64,000 nucleotides of DNA from Cetobacterium sp. 8H (GTDB lineage Bacteria; Fusobacteriota; Fusobacteriia; Fusobacteriales; Fusobacteriaceae). The DNA is taken from NCBI RefSeq assembly GCF_014250675.1, contig NZ_JACHTG010000005.1, forward strand, positions 1 to 64,000. Direction: 5' to 3'. Made by a program: the position numbers and the translations under genes. The notes beneath the pieces were generated by a model that was not told where the DNA came from, did no database searches, and was given only the letters and a program-made list of their open reading frames with translations. The number at the start of each line of letters is the position of its first letter. The first letter of the stretch is position 1. Shown here one piece after another: positions 6,652-40,069 of this stretch.

Positions 6652-6703
6652 TAAACAAATTGGTAAAAATATTTACTTTTTTAAAATTTTAATGTAAAAT
6701 AAA

Positions 6704-6789
6704 AGTGCTAGGGGTGTTATTTATGACTGAGAAACCTTCGGGTTAACCCTTTGAACCTGATTTGGCTAAGACCAACGGAGGGAAGCTAT
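6704..6789 (+). promoter_or_regulatory. TPP riboswitch aptamer (THI element)
   Basis: Conserved TPP blocks occur in order: AGGGGTG, CTGAGA, the P3 hairpin with CTTCGGG, ACCCTTTGAACCTGAT, GCTAAGACCAACGGAGGGAAGC. It lies directly upstream of thiS. The 3' end AAGCTAT can pair with ATAGCTT in the 3' arm of the following terminator, giving a simple antiterminator: ligand binding sequesters AAGC in P1 and lets the terminator form, shutting off thi expression. Confidence 0.96.
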
Positions 6790-6824
6790 TTTATCTAGTT
6801 ATAAATTTGATTTTAACTAAATTA

Positions 6825-35032: not shown

Positions 35033-35061
35033 TTGACATAAAAATTTTCATGTGTTAGTAT
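35033..35061 (+). promoter_or_regulatory. Sigma70-type promoter of the met operon
   Basis: TTGACA (35033-35038), 17-base spacer, TAGTAT (35056-35061). It lies 32 bp before the methionine-rich leader peptide. Confidence 0.75.
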
Positions 35062-35092
35062 ACTTAAAAAATAATTTATAGGAGTGGTTGAG

Positions 35093-35167
35093 ATGACACA
35101 CAATTTAATATCAAAAACTACAATGATGAATATGATGATGCCTATGGGAGTTGGAACCAAAAATTAA
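35093..35167 (+). CDS. Methionine-rich leader peptide (24 residues)
   Basis: A short frame with a good ribosome-binding site (AGGAGTGG, 7 bases before ATG) encodes MTHNLISKTT then MMNMMMPMGVGTKN and a stop. Codons 11-18 hold six Met codons in eight positions. It sits between the promoter and the metNIQ genes and is followed by alternative hairpins and a terminator. This is the layout of amino-acid attenuation leaders such as trpL or hisL, here with methionine as the regulatory codon. The stop codon lies inside the first pairing segment. Confidence 0.8.
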   Translation: MTHNLISKTTMMNMMMPMGVGTKN

Positions 35168-35276
35168 TTTTTAATTTTGGGACGAACTCATTTTTGCTTT
35201 ACTAAATGAGAAAGCTCCCAAGGAATAAAGTTGTTAACATAAAGCTTGGGATTTTAAATCTCAAGCTTTTTTTTAT
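35157..35276 (+). promoter_or_regulatory. Attenuator with antiterminator and terminator hairpins
   Basis: Five segments: 1, CCAAAAATTAA (35157-35167); 2, TTAATTTTGGGA (35171-35182) plus CTCAT (35187-35191); 3, ATGAG (35206-35210) plus TCCCAAG (35216-35222); 4, CTTGGGA (35245-35251); 5, CTCAAGCTTT (35260-35269) with T run. 1:2, 3:4 (antiterminator) exclude 2:3, 4:5 (terminator). A ribosome stalled on the Met codons leaves 1:2 free to form, then 3:4, and transcription continues; a ribosome reaching the stop covers segment 1, so 2:3 and the terminator form. Confidence 0.75.
35241..35276 (+). terminator. Attenuator terminator upstream of metN
   Basis: AAAGCTTGGGATTT pairs with AAATCTCAAGCTTT, followed by T residues, 51 bases before metN. 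Confidence 0.88.
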
Positions 35277-35326
35277 TAAATTTTTTTTAATAGTTACGAA
35301 ATTACTTACGAGATAGGAGGAATAAA

Positions 35327-36361
35327 ATGATACAACTTAGAAATATTATTAAAACTTATGAAAATAAGGGGCAAAGTATTGAAGCTTTAAAGGAGTTATC
35401 TTTTGATTTTAAAAAAGGGGAAATAACAGGAATAATAGGATATTCAGGAGCAGGAAAAAGTACTCTGTTGAGATGCATAAATCTATTAGAAGTTCCAAGC
35501 TCTGGCGAGGTTATAATTGATGGGGTAACTTTAAATGATTTAGATTCTAAGGAGTTAAGAGAAACTAGAAAAAAAATAGGAATGGTTTTTCAACACTTTA
35601 ATTTAATGAGAAGTAGAACTGTAGCTAAAAATATAGCCTATCCGTTAAAAGGAAGTGGGCTTTCTAAAAAAGAGATAAATGAAAGAGTGGATGAACTTTT
35701 AAGTCTAGTGGGATTAGAAGATAAAAAAGATAACTACCCATCACAATTAAGTGGGGGACAAAAACAAAGAGTTGGAATAGCAAGAGCTCTAGCAAATAAA
35801 CCAAATCTTATTCTATGTGATGAGGCAACTTCAGCATTAGATCCTGAAACGACTATTTCAATCTTAAAGCTTTTAAAAAAGATTAATAAAGACTTGGGAG
35901 TAACAATAGTTCTTATTACCCACCAAATGGAGGTTATAAAAGAAATTTGTGACAGTGTCATAGTTATGGAAGATGGAGTTGTAAAAGAAGAAGGAGATAT
36001 TGTAGATATTTTTTCAAGACCAAAAGCTCCAATAACAAAGAGATTTTTATCATCTATTTTCAATAGCAATAAAATAGAGAGCTATTTAGAAAATATATTG
36101 GTTAGAGAGGATGAAAAGATAATAAAGTTAGCTTATGTTGGAACTAGTACAGAAGAAGCTTATATATCGAGAATATCAAGAGATTATAAAGTAGATGCAA
36201 GTATTTTATTTGGGAATATAGAGATTATAAAAGAGACACCTATTGGTAATCTAATAATAAAATTAAAAGGAGATGATAAAAATATTTTCGATTCAATAGA
36301 GTATTTAAATAAAAATAAAATATACCCGGAGGTTTTAAAAGATGGAAGAAAAATTATATAG
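35327..36361 (+). CDS. metN: Methionine ABC transporter ATPase MetN
   Basis: A 344-residue ATPase with Walker A GYSGAGKST, signature LSGGQKQR, Walker B LILCDEATSALDP, and a C-terminal NIL (ACT-like) domain (about 265-344) that in MetN binds methionine and inhibits transport. Motif MVFQHFNLMRSRTV is typical of MetN. Start ATG follows AGGAGG. Its end overlaps metI by 20 bp. Confidence 0.94.
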   Translation: MIQLRNIIKTYENKGQSIEALKELSFDFKKGEITGIIGYSGAGKSTLLRCINLLEVPSSGEVIIDGVTLNDLDSKELRETRKKIGMVFQHFNLMRSRTVAKNIAYPLKGSGLSKKEINERVDELLSLVGLEDKKDNYPSQLSGGQKQRVGIARALANKPNLILCDEATSALDPETTISILKLLKKINKDLGVTIVLITHQMEVIKEICDSVIVMEDGVVKEEGDIVDIFSRPKAPITKRFLSSIFNSNKIESYLENILVREDEKIIKLAYVGTSTEEAYISRISRDYKVDASILFGNIEIIKETPIGNLIIKLKGDDKNIFDSIEYLNKNKIYPEVLKDGRKII

Positions 36362-37022
36362 TTATTTGGGGAATGTAATTAAATATCAAGATGAGATGAT
36401 TAATGCTATAGGTGAAACACTTATAATGGTTGGTATAGCAGGAACAATTTCGACAATACTAGGAACAATTATGGGAATAGTTTTAGTAATAACGAGAAAG
36501 GGTGGGATTTTAGAAAATAGTTTGATCAACAGTATTTTAGGTAAAATAATAAATATTTTTAGATCTATTCCATTTGTAATTTTATTGGCCGCGTTAATCC
36601 CAGTGACAAGATTTTTTATGGGAACAACAATAGGCTTGAAAGGAGCAATTGTACCTCTTATATTTGGATCAGCTCCATTTGTAGCAAGACAGATAGAATC
36701 AGCACTATTAAGTGTCGATTCAGGAGTAATAGAGGCGGCCTATGCAATGGGATCGTCACCTTTTGAAATAATTTATAGAGTGTTACTAAGAGAAGCTTTA
36801 CCAGAAATTATTTATGCTCTTATTATAACTACAGTTAGTTTGATTGGATTTTCTGCAGTAGCTGGTACTGTTGGAGGAGGAGGATTAGGAGATTTTGCTA
36901 TTAGATATGGATATCAACATTTTAAAACGGATATTATGGTGGTAACAATTATTATTCTAATAACTCTGATAACTTTTATTCAATGGTCAGGAGAGAAAAT
37001 ATTAAAAAAAATAAAGCGTTAA
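36342..37022 (+). CDS. metI: Methionine ABC transporter permease MetI
   Basis: A 226-residue permease with about five membrane helices. The EAA coupling loop is seen as DSGVIEAAYAMGSSPFEIIYRVLLREALPEI in the middle (about 118-150). Forms a homodimer with two MetN. It overlaps metN, and metQ follows after 37 bp. Confidence 0.94.
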   Translation: MEEKLYSYLGNVIKYQDEMINAIGETLIMVGIAGTISTILGTIMGIVLVITRKGGILENSLINSILGKIINIFRSIPFVILLAALIPVTRFFMGTTIGLKGAIVPLIFGSAPFVARQIESALLSVDSGVIEAAYAMGSSPFEIIYRVLLREALPEIIYALIITTVSLIGFSAVAGTVGGGGLGDFAIRYGYQHFKTDIMVVTIIILITLITFIQWSGEKILKKIKR

Positions 37023-37059: not shown

Positions 37060-37890
37060 ATGAGAGTATTAAGAATTTTGAAGGTGATTATAGTTTTAGT
37101 TTTATCAACGATAGGATTTATAGGGTGTCAAAAATCATCGGATAACTCTGTGAATACAGATAAAAAAGTAGTGAAATTAGGAATAAATGGGGATGAAAAT
37201 GTAATTTGGGAAAATGTAAGGGATCAACTGGCAAAAGAAAACATAGAGCTAAAATTTATAAATTTTGCAGATTATATTAGACCAAATTTAGCTCTTCAAG
37301 ATAAAGAGATAGATATAAATGCATTTCAAACAGAGATATATTTTGACAATTTTAAAAAAGAACATAAATTATCTATAGTTAATTTAGGATACACAGTTTT
37401 AGCTCCTATGGGAGTTTATTCAAAAAAAATAACAGATCTGTCTCAATTAAAAGATGGTGCAACAATAGCTATTCCAAATGATAGTTCAAATGGAGGTAGA
37501 GCTTTACTTTTACTTCAGGATGCGGAGCTTATAAAAGTGAACCAAGATTCTGGAGCGTTTCCAAGAGTTAAAGACATAATAGAAAATCCTAAAAATTTAA
37601 AAATAGTTGAGTTAGTTGCAACTCAAATTCCAAGGTCGATAGAGGATGTAGATGCAGCTGCTATAAACAATGGTGTTGCAGTTCAAGCAGGATATTCTCC
37701 TTTAGCTGATTCAATTTATATTGAAAACTTTAAAAATGAAAGATTAAAATCATACTTCAATATTATAGCTTCAAGAGAGGATAATCAAAATAATCCAGAA
37801 ATAAAAAGAGTTTTAGAAGTTTATCAGACATCTGAAAATAAAAAAATTATAGATGATTATTATAAAGGTTCATCAATAGCTGTATTTTAA
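37060..37890 (+). CDS. metQ: Methionine-binding lipoprotein MetQ
   Basis: A 276-residue NlpA-family solute-binding lipoprotein. The signal peptide ends in a lipobox IGC with Cys23; the mature part has FADYIRPNLALQDKEIDINAFQTE, which forms the methionine-binding cleft, and IPNDSSNGGRALLLLQ. It presents methionine to MetNI at the outer face of the inner membrane. Expression should follow the leader-peptide attenuator. Confidence 0.94.
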   Translation: MRVLRILKVIIVLVLSTIGFIGCQKSSDNSVNTDKKVVKLGINGDENVIWENVRDQLAKENIELKFINFADYIRPNLALQDKEIDINAFQTEIYFDNFKKEHKLSIVNLGYTVLAPMGVYSKKITDLSQLKDGATIAIPNDSSNGGRALLLLQDAELIKVNQDSGAFPRVKDIIENPKNLKIVELVATQIPRSIEDVDAAAINNGVAVQAGYSPLADSIYIENFKNERLKSYFNIIASREDNQNNPEIKRVLEVYQTSENKKIIDDYYKGSSIAVF

Positions 37891-37919: not shown

Positions 37920-39089
37920 ATGGAGAATAGAATTGTAAATTTTTTAGATAATAATAGAGAGAGTTTTATAGAGATTAGTCAAAGAATACATAAGAATCCA
38001 GAAATTGGAAATGAGGAATATTTTGCAGCAGAGTTGTTGACAAAGTTTTTAAAGGATAAAAATTTTACTATAGAAAGAGATATAGCAGGGCATGAAACTG
38101 GCTTTATAGCTAGAAAAAAATCAAAATATGGAGAGTTTCCCAAAATAGCTTTTTTAGCTGAGTATGATGCATTACCAAATTTAGGACATGCTTGTGGACA
38201 TAATATTATAGGGGCGATAAGTGTAGCCGGAGCAGTTGCACTAGGAGAATTGCTAGATAGCATCCCAGGTGAAATTGTTGTTTATGGGTGCCCATCAGAG
38301 GAAGGTGGAGAAAATGGAAGTTCAAAGGGGTCTTTTGTAAGAGAAAATCTCTTTAAAGATATAGATGTAGCTATGATAATACATCCAAGTAGCGAGAACG
38401 CAATAACTAAAAAAAGTTTGGCAGTAAACCCTTTAGATTTTGAATTCTTTGGAAAATCGTCTCATGCTGCGGGATCGCCAGAAAATGGAAAAAATGCTTT
38501 AGATGCACTAATACACTTTTTTAATGGAATTGCAACGCTAAGACAGCATGTAAAGCCGGATGTGAAAATTCATGGAATAATAACTCATGGTGGGGATGCA
38601 CCAAATATAATTCCAGATTATACAAAAGCTAGATTTTATATAAGGTCTTCTACAAAAGAGGGGTGTGATGAAATTACAGAAAAAGTTGAAGCTATAGCTC
38701 ATGGAGCAGCAATCATGACAGGATGTAAAGCAAAGATTTCTAGTTTTCAAAATAGGGTAGATAATTTAGTTCCTACAAGATATTTTGATGATTTATATGT
38801 GGAAACTATGAAAAAATTAGGTGTGGAAGTATGTGTTGATTCAGAAAAAAGTATGGGGTCAACAGATGTTGGAAATGTCAGTCATGTTGTACCAACTATT
38901 CATCCAAATATAAAAATCTGTAATTGTAGTGTTTCTGGTCATACTCATGAGTTTGCACAAGCGGCTGGATCGGTAAAAGGGGATGAAGCTGTAATTTTAG
39001 GAGGAAAAGCCTTAGCTCTATTGGGACTTTCTTTAATTGTAAATAAAGATAAGTTAAATAGGATAAAAGATGAATTTGTGAAAAGATAA
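37920..39089 (+). CDS. M20-family amidohydrolase (AbgB/PM20D2 type)
   Basis: A 389-residue metallopeptidase-like amidohydrolase. Metal and catalytic motifs: AEYDALPNLGHACGHN, the catalytic Glu pair in CPSEEGGENG, a lid domain with the HAAGSPENGKNALDAL histidine and the final GHTHEFA. It is 30 bp behind metQ, so it should be coregulated with methionine uptake and might release methionine from N-acyl or peptide forms taken up by MetNIQ. That substrate is inference from position. Confidence 0.87.
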   Translation: MENRIVNFLDNNRESFIEISQRIHKNPEIGNEEYFAAELLTKFLKDKNFTIERDIAGHETGFIARKKSKYGEFPKIAFLAEYDALPNLGHACGHNIIGAISVAGAVALGELLDSIPGEIVVYGCPSEEGGENGSSKGSFVRENLFKDIDVAMIIHPSSENAITKKSLAVNPLDFEFFGKSSHAAGSPENGKNALDALIHFFNGIATLRQHVKPDVKIHGIITHGGDAPNIIPDYTKARFYIRSSTKEGCDEITEKVEAIAHGAAIMTGCKAKISSFQNRVDNLVPTRYFDDLYVETMKKLGVEVCVDSEKSMGSTDVGNVSHVVPTIHPNIKICNCSVSGHTHEFAQAAGSVKGDEAVILGGKALALLGLSLIVNKDKLNRIKDEFVKR

Positions 39090-39187: not shown

Positions 39188-40069
39188 TTATTTTTGAAAA
39201 AGATCTCTATAGTCCTTAGGGCAAATTTTTTCATATTTTTTAAATACTTTTGTAAAGTAACTACTATCTTCTATACCAATTTCATTTGATATTTCTGATA
39301 GAGATTTATTAGTTATTTCTAAAAAATATTTAGCTTTTTCAACTTTTTTTATAAGAACATACTCCTTGAATGTTTTTCCTGTTTCTTTTTTAAAAACCCT
39401 ACTAAATTGGGAAATACTTAAATTGCATAATCCTGCAACATCTTCTAAATGAATATTTTCCTTCATTTTTTCATTTATATAGGTGATAGCTGCTGAAATT
39501 TGAGAGTGACTATATTGAACTCTCTCTTCTTTTATGTTGTTTTCGACAATATGATTGTACCATTTTTTATTTTTAATACACTCACTTATATAAACTGATG
39601 TATAATGTAAAACGCTTGCAATACTTTGCAATTCATTGTATTTAACTTTTTTTAAAAATCCATAATTTTCGGCTATTTTCTTTATATTAAACTCTTTACC
39701 AACATTTTCTACTAAAATGTTTTCCAATTCAAAAGTTTCCTCATCTTCTAAAAGTATCTGCCCTACTAAAAATGCTCCAATTAGTTCTCCTTGATAAATA
39801 ATAGGAATTATCATATCTACTAAGCCAGCGTGGCATCTATAAATGTAAGGTTTTAGGGATAAAAATACTTTGCTTAAAGCTTTTACATCACATTTCTCAC
39901 AAAAACAACTAAGCTCTTTATTCTTTCTAAAAATTTTACAAAACTCCGAATAGTTGCTCTTTTCTGTTAAGTAATTTCCTTCATCATCTATAATTACTAT
40001 AGCCATTTTAGTCATATTAACTATCTCTTCTTGAATTTTTATTAACTCTTTCCTATATTTATGAAGCAT
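39188..40069 (-). CDS. pocR: PocR-domain AraC-family regulator of glycerol/diol use
   Basis: A 293-residue activator. The N-terminal PocR ligand domain (about 10-165) has its cysteine set (CFCEKCD, then YRCHAGLVD) and GAFLVGQIL; the C-terminal AraC domain (about 190-293) has two helix-turn-helix units (IHLEDVAGLCNLSISQFSRVF and LSEISNEIGIEDSSYFTKVF regions). PocR regulators sense glycerol or propanediol. It is the last gene of the dehydratase cluster and probably activates it and divergent dhaT through the repeats upstream of dhaT. Confidence 0.9.
   Translation of the reverse strand: MLHKYRKELIKIQEEIVNMTKMAIVIIDDEGNYLTEKSNYSEFCKIFRKNKELSCFCEKCDVKALSKVFLSLKPYIYRCHAGLVDMIIPIIYQGELIGAFLVGQILLEDEETFELENILVENVGKEFNIKKIAENYGFLKKVKYNELQSIASVLHYTSVYISECIKNKKWYNHIVENNIKEERVQYSHSQISAAITYINEKMKENIHLEDVAGLCNLSISQFSRVFKKETGKTFKEYVLIKKVEKAKYFLEITNKSLSEISNEIGIEDSSYFTKVFKKYEKICPKDYRDLFQK

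Follow-up and report, generated by a model that had tools for sequence, protein, structure and literature searches.

A methionine-codon leader upstream of metNIQ in Cetobacterium sp. 8H, a predicted member of a Fusobacteriota-wide family of attenuators with exchangeable codon runs

The metNIQ operon in the 64,000-nucleotide stretch of Cetobacterium sp. 8H DNA analysed here (the window) is very probably controlled by a ribosome-mediated transcription attenuator, in which Met-tRNA supply is predicted to be read via Met codons clustered in a 24-codon leader. The region contains the features expected of an attenuator (a short ORF led by a Shine-Dalgarno sequence, a cognate codon run, an intrinsic terminator and an exclusive antiterminator pairing), and comparison among genomes provides the leader, its retained run, a covarying stem 1:2, the competing stems 2:3, 3:4 and 4:5, and an association with methionine genes. 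Missing from the preliminary description of this region is the wider family: related elements occur across the phylum, and their codon runs vary with the regulated gene. The leader and its expression signals are as follows.

35033–35061, plus strand: sigma-70-like promoter, TTGACA-N17-TAGTAT with TG before the -10 hexamer (10 of 12 matches)
35080–35084, plus strand: leader Shine-Dalgarno AGGAG, from the sequence
35093–35167, plus strand: leader peptide ORF, MTHNLISKTTMMNMMMPMGVGTKN plus stop, from the sequence and genus orthologues
35123–35146, plus strand: Met codon run (codons 11–18, MMNMMMPM), presumed stall region, from a chance test and runs kept in three genera
35241–35276, plus strand: intrinsic terminator, 13-pair stem (35241–35269) and U tract, present in every copy

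The leader starts with an ATG at 35093 and stops at 35165–35167, and its Met codons are at positions 11, 12, 14, 15, 16 and 18, so that the 24-codon peptide with its own Shine-Dalgarno and six Met codons within eight is just as the preliminary description gave it, as is its location between a TTGACA promoter and metN (ATG at 35327, downstream of the terminator). Of all short ORFs with a Shine-Dalgarno sequence on either strand of the window, this leader alone reaches at least four Met in eight codons, and 60 simulated 64-kb sequences yielded one such ORF with at least four and none with at least six. The Met run, the scaffold described below, the terminator and metN are all on the plus strand, and a minus-strand scaffold match at the same element (11.5 bits) is noise. 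The RNA from 35067 to 35280 folds 3.3 standard deviations better than its shuffles. An Rfam search of the leader region gave no match to a leader, riboswitch or T-box family, and the covariance models of the Proteobacteria leader families (His, Thr, Trp and Leu leader) do not match here; matches to HrrF and snoRNAs that came up by E-value threshold score far under the gathering cut-offs and are attributed to chance.

The element is present in 10 of the 12 genomes of the genus with the Met-run frame intact in all ten, so that the comparative search for Met-rich leaders before metN proposed in the preliminary description has a clear outcome, with recurrence in two further genera. In nine of these genomes it lies directly upstream of metN, and in the tenth the contig stops before metN; the two genomes without the element also lack this metN. 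The promoter hexamers and their spacing are the same in the genus orthologues, and the leader Shine-Dalgarno AGGAGTGGTT is retained by most metN and metY copies within the genus. Differences in leader length are whole-codon, in-frame indels (MTHN/MTTHN, NMMM/NMM), and the C-terminal stretch PMGVGTKN is constant. Copies with more divergent DNA (77–81% identity), whose leaders include MFDKIIKTTMMNMMPLGVGTKN, stand before metY (O-acetylhomoserine sulfhydrylase; TIGR01326, over cut-off), before lysC (aspartate kinase) and before the gene of an SBP_bac_5 peptide-binding protein, and the RNA 3' of the run is strongly conserved among the paralogues. At one locus (L120, G056:C71) the Met leader is intact and the metN frame after it stops at about 15 codons, from either decay of metN or a misjoined assembly.

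A covariance model of the same-genus copies with the terminator included (R1) was searched against 98 genomes of the phylum and has matches in six genomes from a second genus of this family (g14). There the leader encodes another peptide, MRNFEFRQLNMMMMLWKGL, also with a Met run; it is located before metN (all five metN copies) and metG (methionyl-tRNA synthetase; TIGR00398, over cut-off), and another g14 leader, MVNSRIGQLNMLMMMLW, precedes metY and hom (homoserine dehydrogenase; NF004976, over cut-off). In Sebaldella (g25), MINYKYINDNMMMYMRYRV is found before metY and MIKYKYFNNNMMMYMRV before metE. The gene downstream of the Met-run leaders in these two genera is methionine-related in every case.

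The RNA that follows the run can be divided into segments with alternative partners.

35141–35150, plus strand: 5' arm of outer stem P1, CCUAUGGGAG, partner of D in the termination fold
35142–35222, plus strand: match to scaffold model R3 (75 bits), with no other strong match in the window; the element is part of the R3 training set
35148–35152, plus strand: segment 1 (A), GAGUU, partner of segment 2, from A:B covariation
35157–35180, plus strand: local hairpin P2, inside 1:2, holding the leader stop codon
35185–35193, plus strand: segment 2 (B), AACUCAUUU, partner of A (1:2) or C (2:3), followed by a conserved UUUUG-type stretch
35204–35210, plus strand: segment 3 part C, AAAUGAG, partner of B
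35215–35223, plus strand: segment 3 part D, CUCCCAAGG, partner of the P1 5' arm (termination) or T5 (antitermination)
35245–35252, plus strand: segment 4 (T5), terminator 5' arm, CUUGGGAU, from terminator and fold analysis
35258–35265, plus strand: segment 5 (T3), terminator 3' arm, AUCUCAAG, from terminator and fold analysis

A second covariance model, R2, also includes the terminator and matches additional leaders with Tyr, His, Asn and Cys runs. It also gives reverse-strand and terminator-only matches at 20–31 bits, a range overlapping that of the true ones; as both R1 and R2 contain the terminator and R2 finds spurious matches, a third model, R3, was built without terminator or codon run. 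Alignment of the part after the run in 19 sequences (A4) reveals a shared scaffold of a GRGUUUG-like A at the end of the ORF, hairpin P2, B (CARACUC; the core in the window is AACUC, 35185–35189), an N-UUUU(G) stretch and a further segment able to pair with B again. Pairing in helix A:B is 93% over the 19 sequences compared with 23–53% in slid controls, and seven cells are changed on both sides compared with 2.1 in shuffles; kinship of the sequences stays in the slid control and is not removed by the shuffles. Both sides change at pairs 9-49, 10-48 and 12-46 (AU/GC, GC/AU and UA/CG). Of the segments, whose covariation the preliminary description put forward as a check, those of stem 1:2 covary; P1 and 3:4 show little covariation within the genus, where the sequences are near copies and non-independent.

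Across the phylum R3 has a match in 67 of the 98 genomes at E≤1. We read the flanks of 60 matches at E<0.02, none of them in the model (E-values of home-made models are rough), and in 58 a short ORF with its own Shine-Dalgarno terminates at the scaffold. Runs were counted as identical residues within six codons with K, I, L and F excluded, using 3000 shuffles of the same regions as the control; at least three identical residues occur in 53 of the 60 (1.4% of shuffles), at least four in 41 (5 of 3000 shuffles, 0.17%) and at least five in 23 (no shuffles). Two R3 matches (L281 and L283) are false and are not leaders, and about half of 20 inspected matches at E>0.02 are coding or intergenic noise. 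About six antisense poly-His leaders resemble Met runs (ATG read backwards is CAT) and were excluded from the Met count. In 48 genomes outside the phylum, taken from a MetN search that returned no fusobacterium and mostly Firmicutes, Proteobacteria or Actinobacteria (AT-rich clostridia included), there are no R3 matches at E≤0.05, the phylum scan serving as positive control.

The identity of the run corresponds to the gene that follows it, and by sequence comparison the window element appears to be a member of a Fusobacteriota-wide family with one RNA scaffold and differing codon runs (Met, His, Tyr, Trp, Pro, Asn and Cys) matched to the downstream genes. His runs precede HisZ or SBP_bac_3 importers, Tyr runs AGCS carriers, PIPPR-like Pro runs the sodium/proline symporter PutP, Asn runs the asparagine synthetase AsnA, and WW leaders NSS-type transporters; NMMMYM is found before metY and metE, and a Cys leader (MCMC) before a sulfite/nitrite reductase-like gene. 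Mixed aromatic leaders (WYFYYYF and FWYFYYF; L291, L293, L297 and L302), with Trp, Tyr and Phe codons in one leader, are located before DAHP synthase. Synonymous codons vary within the runs (CAT 95/CAC 11, TAT 59/TAC 21, AAT 49/AAC 7; Met has no synonyms), as is expected if the residue is what counts.

In the window's own genome R3 also identifies Tyr, Pro and His leaders besides that of metN. The Tyr-run leader MEQKIIFNINSYYYYYLT (L198, G000:C4:881391-881543, minus strand) precedes an AGCS sodium/amino-acid carrier, and in its relatives the Tyr codons pair with a downstream segment; the Pro-run leader (L264, G000:C4:297964-298045) is before putP and the His-run leader (L287, G000:C4:1524499-1524577) before an SBP_bac_3 importer. 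A further locus (L273, G043:C2:755475-756996) has a Thr/Ile leader, MFRLTITTTIIIM, with scaffold and terminator, resembling thrL of E. coli. It is 535 nt before asd (aspartate-semialdehyde dehydrogenase) with an apparent tandem glycine riboswitch intervening, and it was not counted as gene-matched.

The preliminary description had proposed five segments forming mutually exclusive hairpins, and 1:2, 2:3, 3:4 and 4:5 have all been located; since 1:2 covaries and the other three are present, the five-segment logic fits. When Met-tRNA is scarce, the ribosome would halt on codons 11–16, before or over segment 1, and segment 1, either paired in 1:2 or covered, would be unable to pair with D in P1; D would then be unpaired and could form 3:4 with T5, giving read-through. 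When Met-tRNA is ample, the ribosome would reach the stop codon inside P2, 1:2 would not form, 2:3 and P1 would, and segment 4 would be left unpaired, such that the terminator 4:5 would end transcription. The conserved stretch 3' of stem 1:2 may be a pause site.

Masked folding, with a ribosome footprint placed on the leader and the RNA ending where segment 4 is just exposed, agrees in direction with these mutually exclusive antiterminator pairings. The predicted 3:4 pairing is 0.71–0.86 with the ribosome on Met codons 11–16, 0.41 at the stop and 0.18 on codon 18, so the direction of the stall logic in the preliminary description, with more 3:4 during a stall on Met codons than at the stop, is reproduced by the model. 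For 1:2, the predicted pairing is 0.76–0.99 with stalls on codons 11–15; it falls to 0.08 on codon 16 and to 0 at the stop. As soon as segment 5 is transcribed, the fold calculation has the terminator prevailing at equilibrium in every ribosome state, and the decision must therefore be kinetic, during transcription. For leaders of the other genera masked folding is less clear-cut than for the window.

Other readings of the region can be weighed against these data. If the conserved region were the aptamer of a SAM- or methionine-binding riboswitch and the short ORF incidental, the strong conservation of post-run RNA between paralogues would be explained, and a SAM riboswitch does occupy the position before metN in most other fusobacterial genera; yet the same scaffold carries matching runs before His, Tyr, Pro, Asn and Trp genes, and specificity therefore tracks the codons and not the scaffold. 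With leader indels of whole codons and no Rfam riboswitch match, we regard this reading as highly improbable. A plain terminator or transcript-stability element that does not sense translation, with the ORF as a relic, would account for the strong terminator, and the case for an attenuator is itself built on sequence and folding, but it leaves unexplained the runs kept across genera, their synonymous changes and gene-matched identity, and the competing antiterminator pairing; it is scarcely credible.

Two further possibilities retain a role for translation. The constancy of PMGVGTKN within the genus could reflect TnaC-like arrest, with ribosomes stalled by the completed peptide together with free methionine; this stretch, however, overlaps the RNA pairing segments, the leaders of other genera share the run only and no peptide motif, and arrest by free methionine predicts induction by excess, which is odd for an importer, making this very unlikely. 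Methionine is also needed for initiation, and Met starvation could act through failed initiation on the leader (fMet-tRNA) instead of stalling in the run, similar to an idea proposed for the Streptococcus fthC uORF (PMC11109978); untranslated RNA keeps 0.61 antiterminator pairing in a truncated fold without a ribosome. Such a mechanism has no need of a Met run, and versions with His, Tyr, Pro and Asn use the same scaffold, so as a replacement for in-run stalling it is improbable, although failed initiation may add to it. For an attenuator read by a ribosome on the Met codons this presents a puzzle, in that Met starvation should slow initiation on the sensor peptide itself and complicate the sensor.

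The SAM-I riboswitch (RF00162) has no match over its gathering score at the window leader, and the T-box (RF00230) has none here or elsewhere in the genus (12 genomes); T-boxes are rare in the phylum. The closest metN orthologues outside the genus (G018, G019 and G020; 73% identical protein) have a SAM-I riboswitch 75–78 nt upstream, and within the genus a second metN paralogue is under a SAM-I riboswitch (for example L206, G001:C13:32715-33877), so the two metN importers appear to respond to different signals, SAM and Met-tRNA. The window's genome has a single SAM riboswitch, before metK (named from its N-terminal sequence), and in two genera metN may have switched from sensing SAM to sensing Met-tRNA, with metK staying SAM-sensing. 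We think it likely that one ancestral scaffold has spread in Fusobacteriota genomes and acquired new targets at least seven times through codon-run exchange (Met, His, Tyr or mixed aromatic, Trp, Pro, Asn and Cys; perhaps Thr/Ile), filling the role of the Firmicutes T-boxes and replacing the SAM riboswitch before metN in two genera.

Ribosome-mediated attenuation is classical in the his/trp/thr type of Proteobacteria. The window element is alike in having a short leader ORF, regulatory codons, competing hairpins, a terminator and amino-acid genes, but here the codons are Met, one scaffold is used for many amino acids, and the phylum is Fusobacteriota. The geometry also departs from that in E. 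coli, as the run precedes segment 1 and the stop is inside P2, so that stalling permits 1:2 and 3:4. Both the SAM-I riboswitch and the T-box share features with the element, the former having the same position before metN orthologues and transcriptional control of Met genes but binding SAM directly, and the latter sensing tRNA charging upstream of genes for transport, biosynthesis and tRNA synthetases but without involvement of translation. Leader-peptide attenuation has also been described in Actinobacteria and, for His, in Firmicutes (PMC2965389, PMC1262725, PMC9413887). The Firmicutes His leaders (PMC2965389, PMC9413887) resemble the fusobacterial His members in having 3–5 His codons and a terminator/antiterminator outside Proteobacteria, but they are in another phylum and the reports concern His only; R3 finds nothing outside Fusobacteriota (48 genomes). 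The trpB motif, reported upstream of trpB and of an ABC transporter as a candidate riboswitch for which its authors leave a classic attenuator open (PMC11109978), is by description similar in occurring in Firmicutes and Fusobacteria with a terminator and amino-acid genes.

The preliminary description took Met-codon attenuation to be rare or undescribed, and this agrees with the open-access literature, in which we found no Met-codon attenuator except one claim in Streptomyces and no report of leader-peptide attenuation for Fusobacteriota. That claim, for a 'metL' leader peptide before metNIQ in Streptomyces lividans (PMC8079986), is weak as a case of Met attenuation: MSTTSDRTPATEATTTPGARCMCRRMCAF contains just two internal Met, which are not adjacent; it is leaderless and has no typical terminator. 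Novelty appears to lie in the Met specificity, in the phylum and in the modular nature of the scaffold. If the interpretation is correct, Fusobacteriota possess a general charging-sensor system on a single scaffold and transporter substrates could be read from leader codons, with the AGCS carriers being probable tyrosine carriers and the SBP_bac_3 importers probable histidine importers; it would also provide a clean example from nature of orthologous genes in front of which a metabolite riboswitch and a codon-run attenuator have been swapped.

The genes predicted to be under this control are as follows.

35327–36361, plus strand: metN, ABC ATPase with C-terminal NIL domain, best NCBIfam TIGR02314 MetN, under cut-off
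36342–37022, plus strand: metI, permease, NF008049 MetI at 206 bits against a cut-off of 212
37060–37890, plus strand: metQ, substrate-binding lipoprotein, MetQ families under cut-off; Pfam Lipoprotein_9

Because the transporter is under the NCBIfam cut-offs for MetN, MetI and MetQ, its substrate is a prediction from family and leader together. An M20-family amidohydrolase gene (37920–39089, plus strand) begins 30 nt past metQ and is probably part of the metNIQ operon; the enzyme may release methionine from an N-acyl form. Convergent to the operon is a gene for an AraC-type regulator with a PocR sensory domain (39188–40069, minus strand). Elsewhere in the window there is a TPP riboswitch (RF00059, 71.9 bits) at 6700–6800 on the plus strand.
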